From: a virus
IMG/VR virus record: IMGVR_UViG_3300044640_003373
Span: 1 to 20,690 of that record
Reading direction: 5' to 3' (one strand)
Length of the DNA: 20,690 nucleotides
Shown piece after piece: positions 2,183-19,124 of the stretch (position 1 is the first letter of the stretch; each line of letters begins with the position of its first letter). The notes under the pieces are model-generated. The model was not told the DNA's origin. It was given only the letters and a program-made list of their open reading frames with translations, and made no database searches. The position numbers and the translations under genes are program-made.

Positions 2183-4000
2183 TTACCCCTGATGTGCAAA
2201 TGGACCCGAACCGTAATTGACCTTGACGCGCGACCGCGACCGCGCACGTTCGCGCTCTGCCTGCCCCGCTTGGGCATCTTCCCAACCCTCGAACTTGGTC
2301 AGGCCAAGCACGAGATATTGGTTCGCGTCGTGAATATGGCTCCAATCATTTTTGACCGGCTGATCTTTCCAGCGACCACCGCCTGTGCTGAATTGCGTGC
2401 GCGCCATGACATAGCCGCGGTTGAAGCCTTCACGTAGCTTGCGGCACTTGTCCGAAATAACATATCCCGGCTCTGCATCGCCTTTCAGCTTTTCAGCTAC
2501 CGCCTCAATACGCGGTCCAATCAGGTTTTGCTTAACCGGCGCTGGCTTCATTTTCAGCTTAACGCCAATCGCAGTTTCGTTGAATCCGGCGACGAACTTA
2601 TGGATGAATGCCCGATCTTCCTGATTTTTTTCGCTGTCACCATACCAGCATGAAGGGTCGGCCCAGCCCAATTCACCCAGCTTACAACCGGCAAAATTAT
2701 CGTTCCAATATTCGCCGCACTCTTGGCCAAACTCCTTGCCACCCAATTTATCGAGCACATCGTCTTTACCGGCTTTGAAAATCACCACTTCATCGACGAC
2801 ACGGATCTGTCCCTTCGCAGTTTTTTGCGCGAAAAGGGCGGCGGGCGTGCTGCCACCATCAAGTCCGATATAGATCGGCAAACGGCGATCGACCGCCATG
2901 TCGGCGATGCAATGGCGGCTATCGTTGTAACCGGCATAGACCGGGCTTCCGTCGCGCACCGCGCCGAATTTGTTATGGATGAACCGGCGCTTGTCGCCTT
3001 CGGTCATACCGATCTGGATGCGCTCATAATATCCGACCGGCAAATTGCCGATATTTTCGGCACCGGCAGATAATCCACCTGGCTGCACATGGAACGTCAC
3101 ACGGAAATTGTCGCCGAAACTTGCGCGGTAGGCGTCCATTTGTTCGGGCGACAAACCGATATTCTTGTTGACGTTAAAGTCATACGTCCAATTATCTTCG
3201 GCAGGGGCGTTCATGTCGCCGATCATGCCGGACCAGCCCCCAAGCCGCGTGCCCGGCGCGCGATAGCGACCGACGCGGGGGAAGCCATATTTGAACACGT
3301 CGATGTGCAAGGTGTCCATTTCGTTCAACCACAGGCCAGTAAGCGCCATACCCTTAAACAATTCTTCGGCGGATTGATTATCGACCGCGCGGAAAAGCAT
3401 TTCCAGCTCAAGCCGCATGATATCGCCATTGGCTTGCGGAATGGCGAATGACAATTTGTGGGTATTGGTCGTTTGGTTGTAATTTTCCTTGGTCTTGGGA
3501 AACCACATAAACCAATCGGCCATGACGTTGGATTGCAAATGACCATAGGTATCGCGCACCACACACCAGCGCGCACGCCGCACCCCGTCCGGGCCGGGCG
3601 GTTGCCAAATCAGCGAATTGATGATTTTTTGGAAACAGGTCGTCGTTTTGGCGGAGCCATAAGGCCCCATAATCGTTGATACCGCCGCCTTGTCCGACCG
3701 GAACGCATGCGCGACCGGCCCCACCCAATTCATCGTCAGGCCCTTGCTCGCGGCCAGCAATTCACCAAAGCGGCCTTTGGCGTCGGGTTCAATATCTGCA
3801 ATGTCGATTTGCGATAGCCGCTCAATAATCCGGTCAGCTTCTTGAATTTGCCGCGCTTGCTCGACCGTATTGCTCGACATATCGCGCAGCGGGCGGGCTT
3901 CGATTATTGCCTCTGCACATTGATCGAGTATCGGCCCAGTTATCAGGCTGGCCGCCATAAGCGCGTGCAGCGCATTGTCGATGAAGGGCTTAACCTTCAT
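2183..4000 (-). CDS. terL: Terminase large subunit (ATPase-nuclease packaging motor)
   Basis: A 605-residue protein of normal length for a phage large terminase, which cuts the DNA concatemer and drives it into the prohead through the portal. The ATPase domain shows a Walker A-like loop GPYGSAKT at residues 112-119. The Walker B-like strand GLWLNEMD lies at 222-229, with the catalytic acidic pair E-M-D. The C-terminal RNase H-like nuclease domain is marked by IYIGLDGGSTPA (Asp about 381) and by SHIHDANQYLVLGL near residue 570. The start codon lies 11 nt inside the small terminase gene, which indicates translational coupling. The neighbours (small terminase before, portal after) fit the usual packaging module. 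The ATPase loop reads SAKT rather than the common GKT/GRT form. Confidence 0.93.
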   Translation of the reverse strand: MKVKPFIDNALHALMAASLITGPILDQCAEAIIEARPLRDMSSNTVEQARQIQEADRIIERLSQIDIADIEPDAKGRFGELLAASKGLTMNWVGPVAHAFRSDKAAVSTIMGPYGSAKTTTCFQKIINSLIWQPPGPDGVRRARWCVVRDTYGHLQSNVMADWFMWFPKTKENYNQTTNTHKLSFAIPQANGDIMRLELEMLFRAVDNQSAEELFKGMALTGLWLNEMDTLHIDVFKYGFPRVGRYRAPGTRLGGWSGMIGDMNAPAEDNWTYDFNVNKNIGLSPEQMDAYRASFGDNFRVTFHVQPGGLSAGAENIGNLPVGYYERIQIGMTEGDKRRFIHNKFGAVRDGSPVYAGYNDSRHCIADMAVDRRLPIYIGLDGGSTPAALFAQKTAKGQIRVVDEVVIFKAGKDDVLDKLGGKEFGQECGEYWNDNFAGCKLGELGWADPSCWYGDSEKNQEDRAFIHKFVAGFNETAIGVKLKMKPAPVKQNLIGPRIEAVAEKLKGDAEPGYVISDKCRKLREGFNRGYVMARTQFSTGGGRWKDQPVKNDWSHIHDANQYLVLGLTKFEGWEDAQAGQAERERARSRSRVKVNYGSGPFAHQG

Positions 4001-4724
4001 CGGCTATCTCGCTATAATCAGCATCCTGCACCGGCCCACCATGCGACGGCAAAAACTGCATGTTTTGCAGCTGCTCCATCGTCAATTCTGTGTCGTCCGC
4101 CATCGCCGCCAGCGCGGCGGGGTTAGTCAATCCGGCTATATTGAGGATGACGTCAGGTTTCTTGTTGATATCGACCACGATCGGTTGCTTGCCGTGGACG
4201 TATGGCGCAACATCGACCAGCGCCGATTTTTTAATTTTCATCGCCTTTTCGGCCAAGTCGCCGGGCTTCATGGCGTAGCGGCGGATTGCATCAAACACCC
4301 TGTCTGCAAGCTCACCTAGTGTATCCAGATAGTCCTGACTCGCTTTACCCTGCAAATCCTCAATTTTGGCCGTCAAGCGTTCGGCCATGTCCGTCAGTTT
4401 TTCTTCGATCTTGCTTTGCCCTGTGGCAATCACCAACATTTCAACCATTTGGTCAAGCGGCATAAACCCGATGCTGGCCAGCTCCATTACCGGGTCGCCG
4501 TGGACCTGCACGACCATCTGCGCAATTTTGCGGTTGAGCTTATTGGTGGAACCTGGACGACGCCCTGGACCGCTGCGCACTTGCCGATATGCATCTTGCG
4601 GCAACCGACCATCTTTGTCGCGCAATAAGTCAAGCTGCTCTGCTGTCGTTTCAGCGCCCAAAAAACCGGCTCCAATCACCGTTTCGCGCACCGCCGCTTC
4701 AAGGCTCGAAACTTCAGTTGACAC
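3990..4724 (-). CDS. terS: Terminase small subunit-like DNA-packaging protein
   Basis: A 244-residue protein read from GTG 4724, with a G-rich site (GGGGCGG) 6 nt upstream. A TTG at 4754 would add ten residues but has no visible ribosome site, and no ATG is available near the 5' end. The segment GRRPGSTNKLNRKIAQMVVQ followed by HGDPVMELASIGFMPLDQMVE is typical of small-terminase-like phage proteins found directly before terL. A coiled-coil-prone part (KIEEKLTDMAERLTAKIEDLQG) could mediate ring assembly. Small terminases recognise the packaging site and regulate the large subunit. The gene is first in the leftward packaging operon and overlaps terL by 11 nt. The family call rests on context and overall character; the DNA-binding fold was not confirmed. 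Confidence 0.75.
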   Translation of the reverse strand: MSTEVSSLEAAVRETVIGAGFLGAETTAEQLDLLRDKDGRLPQDAYRQVRSGPGRRPGSTNKLNRKIAQMVVQVHGDPVMELASIGFMPLDQMVEMLVIATGQSKIEEKLTDMAERLTAKIEDLQGKASQDYLDTLGELADRVFDAIRRYAMKPGDLAEKAMKIKKSALVDVAPYVHGKQPIVVDINKKPDVILNIAGLTNPAALAAMADDTELTMEQLQNMQFLPSHGGPVQDADYSEIADEG

Positions 4725-5014
4725 GGTGCACCGCCCCGCATAGCATCGCGACAACGGCTACATCGGAAGGCACATGCCCAGCGACTTTACCCCTTACCCC
4801 TTTGGCATCCACGCCACTTCCACCGGAAACACCGCAGTTTTCGGCTAATTTTTGGCCAAATCGGTCCGCCCGCACCCCCGACCCCGTTTGAACGAATTGA
4901 AGTTCGCCGACCTCCGAAACCTTGTGATTGCTTGGCAAAGTGCGTGGAGCGCTTTTTTGAAATCTTGGTCCTGCGCATCCGCGACGGGCATAGCGTGCGT
5001 GCGTCGTCGCGAAA

Positions 5015-5125: not shown

Positions 5126-5223
5126 AACCCGCAGAAATTCGCGCTTTTCATGCTACCGTGCGACGCTGGCCATGCGACGATGCGACAGCCGACCCGCTGA
5201 AACCCGCAGAAATCCGTGCTTTC
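5126..5223 (+). repeat. Direct repeats AACCCGCAGAAAT plus TGCGAC cluster
   Basis: Two imperfect direct repeats, 5126-5149 and 5201-5223, share AACCCGCAGAAATYCG and the following YGCTTT, 75 bp apart. Between them TGCGAC occurs three times (5159, 5173, 5181), two of them as TGCGACG. The same two motif types recur at the right border (CCCGCAGAAATCCG at 19103-19116; TGCGACG/CGTCGCA at 19049-19088). They could be iterons for an initiator protein. Confidence 0.55.
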
Positions 5224-5449: not shown

Positions 5450-5468
5450 AGTTACCAAATGAGATACC
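5450..5468 (-). promoter_or_regulatory. Putative repressor operator O1 (leftward)
   Basis: On the minus strand the 19 bases read GGTATCTCATTTGGTAACT and match the consensus RGTATCTYMTWTGGTWACT found at four other places. TTGCAA precedes it, with an 18-nt gap to TAACTG, which could be a promoter firing leftward towards the terminase genes. TTGATA with a 16-nt gap to TATCTC is an alternative. This would place leftward transcription into the late region under the repressor. Confidence 0.55.
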
Positions 5469-5492: not shown

Positions 5493-5705
5493 CGTTCTAA
5501 ATGTTCTATCCATAGAACGGTCTAATTATATGTAATAGAACGTAAATCAGGCGCTTGTTCTGCGTTCTGCACGTCGCGCGCGCATAAGGCACACACATAC
5601 ATACGCACATGGAGAAAATCGGCGATAGAACAGAACGATAGAACAAAACGCCAAGATATTGAAAAACAACATATACCGATAAGTCAATGCAGAACATTTA
5701 GAACG
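5493..5705. repeat. TAGAAC site array bracketed by 15-bp perfect inverted repeats
   Basis: The outer repeats are CGTTCTAAATGTTCT (5493-5507) and its exact reverse complement AGAACATTTAGAACG (5691-5705). Inside and overlapping are seven TAGAAC/GTTCTA hexamers (5494, 5503, 5513, 5536, 5626, 5639, 5699) and eleven GAAC/GTTC tetramers in about 210 bp. Two of the hexamers form a perfect dyad, GTTCTAT-CC-ATAGAAC (5503-5518). The stretch after that dyad is AT-rich. The pattern fits a cooperative protein-binding array, either an origin or a switch. Confidence 0.7.
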
Positions 5706-5845
5706 CCCCCCAACCCGCAGAAACAGCCAAAAATCGGCCCAATTTCTTGCTTGGTTCAACGGGTGTGGGTTCGGGTGCAGCGGCACAAAGCCATGGCGCC
5801 ACGCCCCAAAACACAGCTTTGTGGCGGATAGAGAGAGAATGATGA

Positions 5846-5884
5846 AGCCGTGCGCACCGCGCGCCGGCGGCGCGCTGCACGGCT
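5846..5884. other. Large two-part GC-rich hairpin
   Basis: An outer 8-bp perfect stem AGCCGTGC/GCACGGCT (5846-5853 with 5877-5884) encloses an inner 7-bp stem GCGCGCC/GGCGCGC (5859-5865 with 5869-5875) with loop GGC. An asymmetric bulge (GCACC against T) lies between them. No T-run follows on either strand, so it is not a standard terminator. It sits 25 bp before the rightward early promoter. Confidence 0.6.
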
Positions 5885-5909: not shown

Positions 5910-5944
5910 TTGACCTGCCTTTAATAGTATCTTATTTGGTTACT
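5910..5944 (+). promoter_or_regulatory. Rightward early promoter with overlapping operator O2
   Basis: TTGACC (5910-5915) is followed after 17 nt by TATTTG (5933-5938). The 19-bp operator AGTATCTTATTTGGTTACT (5926-5944) covers the -10 region. Bound repressor would therefore block transcription of the operon that starts at 5983. Confidence 0.6.
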
Positions 5945-6801: not shown

Positions 6802-7254
6802 GCAAATTTAACAGTCGAAAAACGCATTTATTGGCAAGTCTTTTGGCGCGGCTATTCAGTGCATTCCGCAGCGCTTTTTCATCACAAAAGCGTTGCGACG
6901 CGACTGCACGACTTCATTCTCAACGAATTGCAACAGCTATCCGTCGGTGATCATCGTCCGCTTTTAGATCAGTTTGCCTATAAACGGGTGACCAGCTTTA
7001 TTTACCAACTTCTGTTGGACGATGGATCCTTGTTGCGGCGCGGTGCAATCATGACCGCCGCCACAACCAAAGAGCAACGGCTTGCCGAACGCGACGACGC
7101 ACTGGACGGCCTTGCCCGCGCCATTGCGGAGCGCGATCGGCAAATGATAGCCGCCGCCGTCAACGGCCCCCACCGCCGCGCGATGCACGTCGATCAACGC
7201 GACGCGGGCCATTTACCCCTTTTCATTGCAGCTAACGAACCGAGGATGATCTAA
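6796..7254 (+). CDS. Unknown early protein, possibly two genes fused
   Basis: A 152-residue frame starting MSANLTVEKRIYWQVFWRGY, with its start overlapping the previous stop. At residue 86 the DNA reads GGTGCAATCATGACC, the same 13-base junction that joins the three preceding gene pairs, but here the frame reads straight through. The second half (MTAATTKEQRLAERDD, from ATG 7051) therefore looks like a separate gene that has become fused in frame. It could also still be started internally. The first half is aromatic-rich and helical; the second half is charged (RAIAERDRQMIAAAVNGPHR). Neither half is recognised. The stop overlaps the next ATG as TAATG. Confidence 0.6.
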   Translation: MSANLTVEKRIYWQVFWRGYSVHSAALFHHKSVATRLHDFILNELQQLSVGDHRPLLDQFAYKRVTSFIYQLLLDDGSLLRRGAIMTAATTKEQRLAERDDALDGLARAIAERDRQMIAAAVNGPHRRAMHVDQRDAGHLPLFIAANEPRMI

Positions 7255-7558
7255 TGACCAAAACACTTGCATATTGCGACCGCGCCGGAGTGATCGGCTT
7301 TGCCGTCGGTAAACCAGCGCCAGACGGCACACTTTCATTTTTCAGCGCACGGTCCGAAAAGGCGTGCCGCCTGAAGGTAGAGGCGACCGCGCGCCATGCC
7401 TATGACCAAACGACTTTGCTTGTTCCCGGCGTGCCAGAGGCGGTTGACGAGGCACACGCTCTCGAAGCGTTGCAGCTGCACCGCGCTTGGCTCCAAGGGG
7501 ACCAATCGGACGATTTACCCGCCCGCCGTGAGGCATGGCAACAACGCTTGTTTGCGGC
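7231..7558 (+). repeat. 328-bp direct repeat, copy 1 (gene plus its ribosome site)
   Basis: Matches 7991-8318 at 318 of 328 positions with no gaps. The repeat begins 23 bp before the start codon, so it carries the ribosome site (GAGG) with the gene. Confidence 0.9.
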
Positions 7559-7568
7559 GCGGTCATGA
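7254..7568 (+). CDS. Putative host-nuclease-inhibitor-like protein, copy 1
   Basis: A 104-residue protein, MTKTLAYCDRAGVIGFAVGK at the start. The pattern AYC-x-RAG-x-IGF, an A-[TA]-x-AYD element and TLLVPGVPEA (about residues 53-64) matches what I recall as the phage family annotated host nuclease inhibitor protein. Direct evidence for nuclease inhibition in that family is thin. If the name is right, the product would protect incoming phage DNA from host exonucleases such as RecBCD/AddAB early in infection, which fits its place in an early operon. A second copy with about 97% identity follows at 8014. The two proteins differ at a few residues (L40R, H48R, Q52R, DD to EN near residue 86) and at the extreme C-terminus. 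Confidence 0.6.
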   Translation: MTKTLAYCDRAGVIGFAVGKPAPDGTLSFFSARSEKACRLKVEATARHAYDQTTLLVPGVPEAVDEAHALEALQLHRAWLQGDQSDDLPARREAWQQRLFAARS

Positions 7569-7990: not shown

Positions 7991-8318
7991 GCTAACGAAC
8001 CGAGGATGATCTAATGACCAAAACACTTGCATATTGCGACCGCGCCGGAGTGATCGGCTTTGCCGTCGGTAAACCAGCGCCAGACGGCACACTTTCATTT
8101 TTCAGCGCACGGTCCGAAAAGGCGTGCCGCCGCAAGGTAGAGGCGACCGCGCGCCGTGCCTATGACCGAACGACTTTGCTTGTTCCCGGCGTGCCCGAGG
8201 CGGTTGACGAGGCACACGCTCTCGAAGCGTTGCAGCTGCACCGCGCTTGGCTCCAAGGGGACCAATCGGAAAATTTACCCGCGCGCCGTGAGGCATGGCA
8301 GCAACGCTTATTTGCGGC
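7991..8318 (+). repeat. 328-bp direct repeat, copy 2
   Basis: About 97% identical to 7231-7558 at a constant offset of 760 bp. Five of the ten differences lie in the last 50 bp. Confidence 0.9.
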
Positions 8319-8331
8319 AATGGCATCATGA
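8014..8331 (+). CDS. Putative host-nuclease-inhibitor-like protein, copy 2
   Basis: A 105-residue paralogue of the gene at 7254, with the same ribosome site (GAGG, 8-nt spacer) copied by the repeat. Three substitutions introduce Arg (L40R, H48R, Q52R), so this copy is more basic. The C-terminus diverges from residue 102 onward (AAMAS against AARS). Keeping both frames intact over 760 bp suggests either a very recent duplication or selection for two versions or for dosage. The stop overlaps the next start (ATGATG). Confidence 0.6.
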   Translation: MTKTLAYCDRAGVIGFAVGKPAPDGTLSFFSARSEKACRRKVEATARRAYDRTTLLVPGVPEAVDEAHALEALQLHRAWLQGDQSENLPARREAWQQRLFAAMAS

Positions 8332-10539: not shown

Positions 10540-11003
10540 TCGTTATTGACGCCTGTTTTTTTATAAACAGTCTGGAGGGCTGGCTCGATATCAAAAATCG
10601 CAAAAACGGGCTTGGCCGGATCGATCTTTATCAATTCTGCTTTTTCACGATAAAATGTCTCAAAGCCCATTAACAAAATGCCCGCGGCGGTCTCTTTGCT
10701 GATCGACAGCAGATATTGGCCTTTCTTGTTGCGCTTTGCCGAAAACATGCCTTTTTCATTATCGACCGTCATTGCCATTTTGCCGAACTCGTCGCCATTC
10801 CCAAACATCAACGCCAGCTTATGGTGGTCAAGCGATAGGTGCAGCCCCGCCGCCAACTTTTGGCCGATAGTCAGTTGAATATACTCGGCACCAGCCTTGC
10901 CATTTTTGCTTACGTTCATCTTGCGCGACGCCACTTTGACGCCACTGGAAAAATCAGGCGCGCCAGTATTGGCCACCTTGTTTATTAAAACGGAATACCC
11001 CAT
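10536..11003 (-). CDS. Unknown protein in replication operon
   Basis: A 155-residue basic protein from ATG 11003 (AAGGAG 7 nt upstream; a GTG at 11006 is too close to that site). It overlaps the stop of the ATPase gene by one base. It has beta-strand-like patches (GYSVLINKVANTG, EYIQLTIGQKL, KGQYLLSISKE) and many Lys residues (VKVASRKMNVSKNGKAG), suggesting a compact nucleic-acid-binding domain. A single-stranded DNA-binding or replication accessory role would fit its place after primase and helicase. No family is recognised, so this is inference. Confidence 0.7.
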   Translation of the reverse strand: MGYSVLINKVANTGAPDFSSGVKVASRKMNVSKNGKAGAEYIQLTIGQKLAAGLHLSLDHHKLALMFGNGDEFGKMAMTVDNEKGMFSAKRNKKGQYLLSISKETAAGILLMGFETFYREKAELIKIDPAKPVFAIFDIEPALQTVYKKTGVNNE

Positions 11004-12886
11004 CACTCAGCTCCTTCTTTACTGTTCCAAAACGATTTCAGCGGTATCGCCACGGCATTTTCGCTGCCGCCTGGGTTGAACCGGATTTTAAGCCCGCTGA
11101 TGCATCCGTCGATTTTTTGCATCGACTGTATCCATTTTCCGGCTTCCCACTGGCTGCGCGAAAACAGGTCGCACAAGGGCGATGACGTGGGATAGGCGAC
11201 CGCCAGATAGGCATTTTCGTCCTGCAACCACGCGTCTTTTATTTTGCGTTTACGGTCGACTGTTTCAAAACGGATAAGGCGCAGGCCAACGGTTTTCAGG
11301 CGTTCACGTGCTTTCTGGTCGATGCCGTGGCTTTCATTTGTTACTGGGTCGATGATTGGCTTTAATGCCCGGTCGATCCACTGCCCAACCGTTTCCGCCG
11401 CCGCGCCATGTGCGCCTTGCAATGTCTTGGCGAGGAGGAACGGCATAACCGTTTCGGTATCGCTTAACGCCTCTCCTTTGCCGACGGCTAACATCGGCAG
11501 GATCAAACGGGTCCATGCTTTTTCAGTCGGGTTTTCTGCATCTTCGGTGCGATTGCGCGGCGCATCGTCAAACAACAGCAAATCGGCGCAGGCCAACAAT
11601 GTGCCAAATGTGTCGGCCCATCGTCCACTATAGCCATGGCTTGAAATTTCGCGCTTATATGTCGCCAGCGTTTCGGCAAGGCGCGGCCATTGTTGCACCA
11701 TGCGGCGGTGCATTTTGCGTCCGATTTCGCGCCAATAGGACACATCGAAACTTAACGGCGCAACCCCTTCTGGCACCTGAAGCATGTCCAGCTTGGCAAC
11801 ACGGTTGCGATGTTCGCCCTTCAATGGCGCGTGCAGGACGCACGACAACATGAAACAGCTTTGCGCCGTAAATTCCTGCGCCTTGTGATCTTGTGACCCT
11901 CTAATGATTTTGCCGCCCGACGACGCCTTTTTCATCAGGTTCAATATCGCAATTTGGCGCTCTCCATTATCGTCGCCCTCGGCTTCGTCGAGCAGGAAAG
12001 GCAACGTATCGTCACCCAATATTTGCCGTATTGCCGCTTCGCTGGCATCTTCGGCAAACAAGGTCCAATCGCCATGCAACGCACGAAACAGGCTTTGTAA
12101 ATAGCTTTTACCCGCAGCGGTCGGGCCGGTGGCAAGCACATGGCTGCGCCACGTCAATGCGCCGCAAATGTGCATCTGTGCCGAAAAACCCAAAAGCAAT
12201 AATGTCGCTGCATCTTGTTCACGAAAGAACCATCGGTTGAACAATGCGCGAAGCTGCTTTCCTTCCTCGACCGTGCTGATGTCTTTGGCGGGTGCGGGCA
12301 ATGTCGGCAGCGCGGGGAAATAACTTTCCCCAACGCGGCCTGCCTTCACAACGCTAATCGGCTGATCGGTCTGTGCCCCGCGCCAGTCGGTGGCGCTGGA
12401 CAACATGACACGGTTGCCCATGTGCAGTATTAACTGTGTATCGTCATCCCGCGACCGGTGGGCCCCACGGCCAAACACACGGTTGACCGGGTTAAATATG
12501 CCCTTGGCATAGCAGGCGGACAATAAATCGACCTGGACTTCTTTTTGGTTGAACCCGTCTTTAACCGGCTCGCTTTGCCCTTTGCCCGGCTGTTTCCATT
12601 GCGGCCAGCGTTCGTCGAGATATTCACAGCCGCCAAAAAGCAGGATCAAGTCCCCTTTTTTGCAGTCTGTTTTCATGTTTATGATCTGGCTAGACGCATC
12701 AAGCACCCAAATGCTTTGCCCTTGCACGCCCAACGCGGTCACAGGACAATTTTCGGGCAAATAGCTGAACAATTGCCTTTCCTCGCGAATTTCTTCGCTT
12801 TTCGGCTTGCGCTTGCGCATATCGGGCGCGGGCTGCGGAGTCGCCGCTGCGGCGGCAACCGCCTCGATGTTGCTTGGGTCAGTCAT
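11003..12886 (-). CDS. Phage replicative helicase-like P-loop ATPase
   Basis: A 627-residue protein directly after the primase, overlapping it by ATGA. The N-terminal about 200 residues are variable, with a basic start (MRKRKPKSEEIREERQ). The central ATPase domain carries Walker A GPTAAGKS (residues 254-261, within SHVLATGPTAAGKSYLQSLF). Walker B is LPFLLDEAEGD (295-305). A downstream segment, KIIRGSQDHKAQEFTAQSCF, resembles the sensor region of helicase-like ATPases seen beside phage and plasmid primases. The arrangement primase then ATPase suggests it unwinds DNA at the phage fork. It lacks the RecA-type DnaB look, so an AAA+/SF3-like mechanism is more likely. The exact family is not certain. 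Confidence 0.75.
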   Translation of the reverse strand: MTDPSNIEAVAAAAATPQPAPDMRKRKPKSEEIREERQLFSYLPENCPVTALGVQGQSIWVLDASSQIINMKTDCKKGDLILLFGGCEYLDERWPQWKQPGKGQSEPVKDGFNQKEVQVDLLSACYAKGIFNPVNRVFGRGAHRSRDDDTQLILHMGNRVMLSSATDWRGAQTDQPISVVKAGRVGESYFPALPTLPAPAKDISTVEEGKQLRALFNRWFFREQDAATLLLLGFSAQMHICGALTWRSHVLATGPTAAGKSYLQSLFRALHGDWTLFAEDASEAAIRQILGDDTLPFLLDEAEGDDNGERQIAILNLMKKASSGGKIIRGSQDHKAQEFTAQSCFMLSCVLHAPLKGEHRNRVAKLDMLQVPEGVAPLSFDVSYWREIGRKMHRRMVQQWPRLAETLATYKREISSHGYSGRWADTFGTLLACADLLLFDDAPRNRTEDAENPTEKAWTRLILPMLAVGKGEALSDTETVMPFLLAKTLQGAHGAAAETVGQWIDRALKPIIDPVTNESHGIDQKARERLKTVGLRLIRFETVDRKRKIKDAWLQDENAYLAVAYPTSSPLCDLFSRSQWEAGKWIQSMQKIDGCISGLKIRFNPGGSENAVAIPLKSFWNSKEGAE

Positions 12887-13968
12887 GCGGACGCCATCTT
12901 CACACCGCGCAACACGTCGTTAAAATCCTTATATTCATGCGGCGGCCATAGGATGCTGACACCGCGCACTTCGCCGTCTGCCGTCATTTGTTGGTCGGCT
13001 TGCTCTTGTTGCAATGCGATGCACGCTTCCAATGCGGCGACCGCATCGCGCGGCTTGTCGGGCTGGCGCTTGTCCCATTGCCCGACGATCACCAGGTCGC
13101 CCGCTTGGGCTGGCAATATCAACGAGCCAATTTTATCCAGCGTGCCCGCTGCCAATACCCGCCGCGTTGGGTCAACCATTGCGATGGTGAGCGCATCCTC
13201 AATCCCCTCGCTGACATAGACGGGCGTGCCCGCGTCGATATCGCGCAGCGTCTTGGTGCAACTGCCTTTGTGGATCGGCATGGCCGCGCCTTTGAACCCA
13301 CCTAAAATCGTCTTTGGTGTATCAAGATTGGCTTTCACCCAACCTTTGCGCGTATGCTCCAAAAACGTGCGGTGCGTGGCGATATGCTTGCCATCGATGC
13401 CGATTATTGCGGTGACGACGGCGGGGATATTGCGCCGTAATTCGGCGTTCCAAGTATCATGCCGATATCGGATTGCGCCCGGCAACTTACCCAACTTGCT
13501 AAAATCAATGTGGCGACCCTCAAAATATTTCTGCGCGGGCGTGTCCTTCATCGGCGCGGCAAATTGCCACAATCCGCGCGCCGACTCCTGCTTTTGCTTG
13601 GCCGCTTCTTCCTCGCTGCGCTGGCGTTCAATGCGGCGCTGCTCGACCTCGGCACGATTGGCCGGCGTATCAAACGAAATCCCTGCATCGGCCTCAAGCA
13701 TCCGCAGCGCGGCGATAAACGTCATGCTTTTGCGCTCAATCAAATATTTGATCACATCGCCGTTCCAGCCACAGCCAAAACATTGCGCAAACTGCTTTGC
13801 GTCATTGATCATGAAACTGCCGGTGCGCTCCCCGTGGAACGGGCAACATGCTTCTTGTTCGCTGCCCTTCTTGGTCAGCTTCACATCGATGCCAACAATA
13901 GACGACATCGGCACGCGGTCCTTGACCGCCCGTGCGCGCGCCTGAATGTCTGTGGTCCCCACCTTCAT
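12883..13968 (-). CDS. DNA primase (CHC2 zinc finger plus Toprim domain)
   Basis: A 361-residue primase. The N-terminal zinc ribbon shows CCPFHGERTGSF (Cys42, His45) and CFGCGWNGDVIKYL (Cys63, Cys66), the usual C-x2-H and C-x2-C pairs of CHC2 primases. A Glu/Gln-rich helix (110-130) links to a Toprim domain. That domain holds VYVSEGIEDALT (Glu254, metal-binding) and LVIVGQWDKRQPDKP (Asp299), and ends near EYKDFNDVL. Primases of this type make RNA primers for phage replication. The length suits an integrase-type phage primase whose helicase is encoded separately, here by the next gene. It starts at ATG 13968, directly after a run of small frames and a tRNA in the same leftward operon. Confidence 0.92.
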   Translation of the reverse strand: MKVGTTDIQARARAVKDRVPMSSIVGIDVKLTKKGSEQEACCPFHGERTGSFMINDAKQFAQCFGCGWNGDVIKYLIERKSMTFIAALRMLEADAGISFDTPANRAEVEQRRIERQRSEEEAAKQKQESARGLWQFAAPMKDTPAQKYFEGRHIDFSKLGKLPGAIRYRHDTWNAELRRNIPAVVTAIIGIDGKHIATHRTFLEHTRKGWVKANLDTPKTILGGFKGAAMPIHKGSCTKTLRDIDAGTPVYVSEGIEDALTIAMVDPTRRVLAAGTLDKIGSLILPAQAGDLVIVGQWDKRQPDKPRDAVAALEACIALQQEQADQQMTADGEVRGVSILWPPHEYKDFNDVLRGVKMASA

Positions 13969-18654: not shown

Positions 18655-19124
18655 CCGAGTTTAACCCCATTGAGTTTATGCTTGAGCAACATGACCTAGC
18701 AAACCGCAATCGCTATAGAATAACACATTGGGCTGTAAACGACGGCGCTTTGATGGAGCTGGCTTCGCGCGATTGGCGCAGCACATTTTGCGATGAAAAG
18801 ATGCTTGGCAAGCCTATGCTTGAAAGAGAATATCTAGGTATTCCTTTGCGGTTCATGGAACAATGGCACCCCCACTATGAACCTCGAATGGGAGTGCAGT
18901 ATGAGACCTATGGTTCTAGTATTCTAATACACGATTATGATGGCTCTATTTGGCATGGCAACGACCAGAAGCGATTTTTAAAGCGCATAAAAGACAGCCT
19001 CGATATTGCACGCGCATTGAATGACCGAATTACCCCAAAAGATACCATCGTCGCACGTGCGACGGCGATATCGTCGCACGGCGTCGCACAGAACACTGTT
19101 GACCCGCAGAAATCCGACGTTTAA
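18651..19124 (+). CDS. Unknown protein overlapping integrase end
   Basis: A 157-residue protein from ATG 18651, overlapping the integrase stop as ATGA. It is acidic and aromatic-rich: NPIEFMLEQHDLANRNRYRI, then FMEQWHPHYEPRMGVQYETY and HDYDGSIWHGNDQKRF. Base composition is more AT-rich than the integrase, suggesting separate origin. The last 25 codons are built from repeat DNA: the palindrome CGTCGCACGTGCGACG and a CCCGCAGAAATCCG motif lie inside the reading frame. The C-terminal tail may therefore be shaped by a DNA site rather than by protein function. No family is recognised. Confidence 0.68.
   Translation: MTEFNPIEFMLEQHDLANRNRYRITHWAVNDGALMELASRDWRSTFCDEKMLGKPMLEREYLGIPLRFMEQWHPHYEPRMGVQYETYGSSILIHDYDGSIWHGNDQKRFLKRIKDSLDIARALNDRITPKDTIVARATAISSHGVAQNTVDPQKSDV
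19049..19116. repeat. TGCGACG repeat cluster with 16-bp palindrome
   Basis: CGTCGCACGTGCGACG (19049-19064) is a perfect palindrome. Further CGTCGCA copies lie at 19072 and 19082, and CCCGCAGAAATCCG at 19103-19116. Another CGTCGCA occurs at 19233. The same motifs occur at 5126-5223. All of this cluster lies in the 3' end of the unknown gene after int. Confidence 0.6.

Follow-up and report, generated by a model that had tools for sequence, protein, structure and literature searches.

The cluster of GAAC-containing words at positions 5493-5705 of a temperate phage fragment is probably (about 80%) the vegetative replication origin of the phage, an origin of the iteron type whose words, as judged from sequence comparison, would be read by the helicase encoded at 11003-12886 with its partner primase. 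The fragment, hereafter the window, is the whole stretch of 20.69 kb that was analysed, and it encodes a T7-type head-tail connector (PF12236), a BcepC6B-type large terminase, a TerS-like protein, and a Bro-N antirepressor. The genes that bear on the function of the array are as follows.

11003-12886, minus strand: helicase/initiator of 627 aa, AAA+ core with Walker A ending in GKS at 259-261; proposed word reader
12883-13968, minus strand: CHC2 zinc-finger/Toprim primase, overlapping the helicase gene (PF01807, PF23639; Toprim_3 just under the cut-off)
3990-4754, minus strand: TerS-like protein, neighbouring late gene and rival reader (synteny, GRPxGxxNKR-type motif)
2183-4000, minus strand: large terminase, TerL (tblastn to BcepC6B TerL, 34%)

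Composition of the array in the window

The initial annotation had described TAGAAC hexamers enclosed by a perfect 15-bp inverted repeat. Indeed, the arms of this repeat (CGTTCTAAATGTTCT, 5493-5507; AGAACATTTAGAACG, 5691-5705) are 100% complementary with 183 nt between them, and seven of the eight TAGAAC in the whole window (both strands; chance mean, 2.75) lie at 5494-5704, in agreement with the seven counted earlier. The eleven GAAC/GTTC tetramers in the 213 bp of 5493-5705 were likewise confirmed, as was the statement that fewer than two are expected by chance, the window mean being 1.48 per 213 bp. Elsewhere in the window, GAAC/GTTC reached at most six and TAGAAC at most one per 213 bp, and this was the single word cluster found in the 20.69-kb fragment. 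The array is AT-rich compared with its surroundings (59% versus 45%) and is located between leftward terminase genes on one side and rightward small ORFs from about 5980 on the other, that is, between late and early operons as had been noted. The pair GTTCTAT-CC-ATAGAAC, which had been singled out, is present but is only part of a wider pattern; similarly, the 15-bp repeat is real, but it is the 4-6 bp GAAC word, and not this repeat, that forms the unit of the array. The dyad centre, near 5599, is equidistant from the two arms of the 15-bp repeat. Arrays of the sub-type represented in the window have their outermost word pairs facing outward. The elements are listed below.

5493-5508, minus strand: GTTCTAAATGTTCTA, the outer left pair, with 9 bp between its two words; also the left arm of the 15-bp repeat
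5513-5541, plus strand: two TAGAAC (5513 and 5536) facing the inner left pair; GAAC at 5515 is 42 bp from the inner pair
5519-5556, unstranded: left AT-rich arm, candidate melting site (sequence; AT-rich arms across 39 arrays)
5545-5557: IHF-like AATCAGGCGCTTG, left-arm side
5557-5567, minus strand: inner left word pair, GTTC at 5557 and GTTC at 5564
5568-5625, unstranded: central spacer with GCGCGCGC, alternating purine/pyrimidine
5626-5644, plus strand: inner right words TAGAACAGAACGATAGAAC, GAAC at 5628, 5633, and 5641
5645-5691, unstranded: right AT-rich arm, candidate melting site (sequence; AT-rich arms across 39 arrays)
5652-5664: IHF-like CAAGATATTGAAA, one mismatch, right arm
5692-5705, plus strand: GAACATTTAGAACG, the outer right pair; also the right arm of the 15-bp repeat
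5846-5884, plus strand: conserved hairpin on the early side; its internal loop has GCACC facing one T

The Alphaproteobacterial LexA box is GTTC-N7-GTTC. This candidate was rejected because the window pairs, GTTC-N5-GTTC and GTTC-N3-GTTC, have the wrong spacing. A promoter at TTGACC 5910 was also discarded, since its spacing was poor and a promoter scan did not report it.

Conservation of words and layout among relatives

Relatives of the window were found among Sphingomonas and Stakelama prophages, including L021 and L022 from Sphingomonas hankookensis and Stakelama pacifica, and many metagenomic virus contigs, and a DNA similarity search among named phages gave no match. A comparison of spacing in related phages had been suggested, and both sites and spacing were kept; the loss of conservation in close relatives that would have spoken against the array was clearly not observed. 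In close relatives, words and spacing were mostly intact, and the outer left pair GTTCTAAATGTTCTA was identical in L003, L005, L015, L016, and L017, and also in the distant L022. In the closest relatives, a change at the edge made the 15-bp repeat shorter, or the repeat was more degraded. Every relative whose contig covers the region carried a word cluster, and those with a 67-73% identical TerL nearly always had 9-11 words in 230 bp versus about one expected, L007 having six only. In prophages with only about 30% identical helicases, GAAC was often replaced (GGTAACC, TTGGGAAGT, TTGGGAAC, or GGAACCG) in the same layout. The word varies among phages as a set of dialects (TAGAAC, GGAACC, TTGGGAAC, GGTAACC, GGGAAGT, CTAACG, and others) on a constant mirror-symmetric layout, and the window carries this conserved array in its GAAC dialect.

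A profile search of IMG/VR with the helicase gave 224 relatives, from which 80 loci were kept. A strand-mixed word cluster was observed in 69 of these 80 loci, a few of the 69 being doubtful words rather than arrays, versus 4 of 95 control viral loci (log10 P <= -7), the controls being a chance-matched rather than a random sample in which some loci have clusters of their own. Several GAAC arrays escaped the 6-mer scan, and L209, L231, L240, and L251, for which it picked doubtful words, were omitted from the co-variation test described below. In total, 91 arrays were modelled, and nearly all of those loci encode a relative of the window helicase.

Among 55 non-redundant arrays, 52 had an inner core of two word pairs in opposite orientation, with 7-9 bp within a pair and, in the median, 76 bp between the pairs. 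Outer words were reached through an arm of 38-46 bp on at least one side in 44 of the 55, and on both sides in 31. The arms, with words on either side, were AT-rich (57% AT versus 35% for the loci; 39 arrays, p=3e-11), and the central spacer showed a purine/pyrimidine alternation of 0.69 versus 0.53 (39 arrays, p=2e-8). Furthermore, IHF-like sites occurred in 10 of 66 arms, where about 0.001 per arm is expected. The array lay nearly always just upstream of TerS, even with the helicase gene kilobases away. In most relatives it lay between same-strand helicase and terminase genes, in many (e.g. L221, L265, and KLER1-1) directly 3' of the helicase gene; the window array is 5.3 kb from that gene. 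In one prophage, G049, the helicase is 45% identical but the array is missing, probably as a result of decay.

Besides an origin, a late-gene activator site and a DNA-looping switch had been proposed for the region, and neither of these two received specific support. In such a scheme, a phage regulator bound to the words would switch the late and early operons, perhaps by looping, in keeping with the location between divergent operons in the window and with an 18-bp near-perfect inverted repeat that brackets the array (5450-5467 / 5927-5944). In most relatives, however, the array stands between same-strand genes, an operator needs neither AT-rich arms nor a large dyad, and the HTH protein common to these phages agrees with the word less well than the helicase (25:8, p=1e-5). 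Transcription control is very unlikely to be the function of the array.

Several other elements were observed around the array or elsewhere. In 25 of the 91 loci, a hairpin similar in shape to that at 5846-5884, but with a different stem sequence, was located close to the array (0.15 per locus expected by density elsewhere); the window hairpin had no match in Rfam. The arms of the 18-bp repeat, AGTTACCAAATGAGATAC, are 459 nt apart, and in L021 and L022 the two equivalent positions carry words of the GGGACA type; these are perhaps repressor operators. The sequence CCGCAGAAATYCG occurs three times in the window (5129-5141, 5204-5216, and 19104-19116; 0.15 expected with one mismatch), its first two copies flank TGCGACG repeats, and similar words lie upstream of TerS in distant relatives, making it a candidate packaging or regulatory element. 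Repeats like CCCGACCC and GGGTCGGG are found on both sides of the array region (4870-4890 and 5706-5800), in relatives too. Two near-identical small ORFs of the early region (7254-7568 and 8014-8331; MTKTLAYCDRAGVIGFAVGKPAPDGTLSFFSARSEKACR...) are an apparent gene duplication. An early intergenic region of Vibrio phage VA-RY-3 (L180:6792-7110) contains a strand-mixed cluster of AGGAT words that are arranged differently, possibly another kind of origin. BcepC6B was rejected as a carrier of the array; only a tandem-inside-inverted-repeat stem (9-73-9) was found, at the start of the record, 3' of its primase gene.

Correspondence between the word and the helicase

Word distances were taken over both orientations because the orientation of some arrays is ambiguous. 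Word distance correlated best with helicase distance, the correlation being modest (r of about 0.26). A rival reading takes the array for a cosB- or pac-like packaging site, with the words as TerS sites, IHF bends, and a cut site between the array and TerS; in its favour are the location immediately upstream of TerS at almost every locus, the IHF-like sites in the arms, and further conserved elements in the interval up to TerS (two copies of CCGCAGAAATYCG at 5129-5216). In Mantel tests (n=55), however, the partial correlation of the word with the helicase given TerS was significant (r=0.175, p=0.001), whereas that with TerS given the helicase was not (r=0.05, p=0.13), and TerL likewise added nothing significant given the helicase. 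Where the nearest helicase and the nearest TerS neighbours were discordant, the word sided with the helicase in 29 of 37 cases (29:8; Wilcoxon p=0.0013), and discordant cases with the helicase more than 2.5 kb from the array still favoured the helicase (7:1).

Natural exchanges gave the same picture. L169 and L170 are 66% identical in TerS and 77% in TerL, yet their words differ; the helicase of L169 is 55-56% identical to those of L168 and L165, which have the same or a similar word. L178 showed the same pattern, its word going with the helicase and not with the terminase. In the natural recombinant pair L052/L172, the array and most early genes are near-identical, whereas TerS and TerL are 36% and 38% identical, respectively. 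KLER1-1 and L265 have unrelated gpA-type terminases, yet the array lies unchanged in layout 3' of the helicase homologue. Conversely, in Pmp11 and Y3, TerL relatives with lambda-type O/P replication, no array was found upstream of TerS. A packaging site is quite unlikely in view of these results. Still, since the array lies nearly always just upstream of TerS, it may take part in packaging, or may be origin and packaging region at once.

Within the helicase, the segments at about aa 115-165 and 470-560 co-varied best with the word, and much of the ATPase core hardly did; the latter segment lies within the C-terminal domain. Taken together, co-variation, natural exchanges, and segments within the helicase are three lines that point to the helicase as the putative word reader. 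It is also conceivable, though unlikely, that the array is an origin whose words are read by the primase or another linked early protein: the primase fits almost as well, since its partial correlation is small but persists (0.12, p=0.03) and the two were not separated by the neighbour test (16:12, not significant). The partial correlation of the helicase was nevertheless larger (0.18, p=0.001), the phages with the GAAC word fall into two clades by their primases, and known analogues read the origin through the C-terminus of the helicase (PMC7581432).

A predicted mirror-image origin and its counterparts

The helicase was assigned to phrog_21086, which is listed as unknown, and to phrog_35358 ('DNA primase'), and had no Pfam match. 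Its AF2 model (pLDDT 90.6) gave PriRep1 bound to dsDNA (7pds), the SaPI5-type initiator, as the top Foldseek match in PDB (E 1.8e-7, TM-score 0.32, 10% identity), followed by the NrS-1, D5/E5, and ASFV primase-helicases. The model supports assignment to the class of self-loading initiators and not close kinship with PriRep1, because the TM-scores are low (about 0.3). The secondary structure of the C-terminal domain is only winged-helix-like, and a fold search with this isolated domain against PDB gave no significant match.

Conserved sites and spacing, word-helicase co-variation, AT-rich arms, and the likeness of the helicase to self-loading initiators support the origin reading well. In the proposed arrangement, the GAAC words would be iterons bound by the helicase, acting with the CHC2/Toprim primase encoded beside its gene. 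The array would consist of two mirror-image half-origins, each with outer words, an AT-rich arm of about 41 bp, and an inner word pair, joined head-to-head across the GC-rich alternating spacer. By analogy with P4 alpha and SaPI Rep, we infer that the bound helicase would melt the AT-rich arms, perhaps helped by IHF, before priming by the neighbouring primase; the mirror symmetry could allow two helicase rings to be loaded and to move off in opposite directions. A bidirectional origin should show a leading-strand change, which a GC-skew test did not reveal: third-position skew fell from the helicase to TerL, opposite to the expected shift, a result confounded by the comparison of different genes.

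SaPI Rep reads iterons just downstream of its gene with its C-terminal domain (PMC7581432), and P4 alpha is described as binding its origin repeats with a winged-helix domain (PMC4234260). In the PICI/SaPI origins with Rep or Pri-Rep initiators (PMC6092414, PMC7581432), short iteron sets flank an AT-rich stretch as they do here, and the origin is 3' of the helicase-initiator gene, as in many relatives but not in the window. Rep uses its C-terminal domain, one peak of word co-variation falls in the C-terminal domain of the present helicase, and PriRep1 is the top structural match of this helicase. In contrast, PICI/SaPI are satellites without structural genes of their own, whereas the present array occurs in complete temperate phages, and the head-tail connector, TerL, and TerS-like genes set the window apart from satellites. 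Moreover, the present array is two half-origins head-to-head, its AAA+ protein comes from an otherwise unnamed family, and its primase is of the CHC2/Toprim rather than the AEP type of SaPIbov1 and SaPI5.

P4 (alpha/crr/ori) combines a Toprim primase with a helicase as here. Its crr, annotated as required for replication and located directly 3' of alpha, has a spacing of 9-41-11, in which pairs of 9 and 11 bp face across 41 bp; the window has about 8, 41, and 12, so that crr is almost the present half-array, and the P4 word GGTGAACA also contains GAAC. However, P4 has direct 120-bp repeats (crr) and a separate ori about 5 kb off instead of one inverted, dyad-symmetric array. Lambda-type origins also have iterons adjoining an AT-rich region, but lambda iterons lie within the O gene, O is not a helicase, and O/P-carrying relatives lack the present array. 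Lambda cosB and terminase binding sites share repeated words and IHF-like sites upstream of TerS, but here the word goes with the helicase, and phages with another family of terminase keep the layout.

That helicase initiators of phages or satellites can read iteron origins is already known. It appears to be new that the layout is doubled, that it is spread among complete temperate phages, and that it has so many matched word dialects, and no description of the doubled array layout was found in the open-access literature. We lean slightly towards regarding these arrays as a widespread, undescribed family of temperate-phage origins, in which two P4/PICI-like half-origins are fused head-to-head and read by a new helicase-initiator family, with diverged dialects and nearly fixed spacings. 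If this is true, the origin reading would give phrog_21086 a function, satellite and phage origins may share one design whose range the doubled form in complete temperate phages would widen, and the words would constitute a natural recognition code. The dozens of matched helicase/word pairs would then be a data set on how a helicase initiator reads its origin, and would let one ask whether the word changes for phage incompatibility or for escape from satellites.
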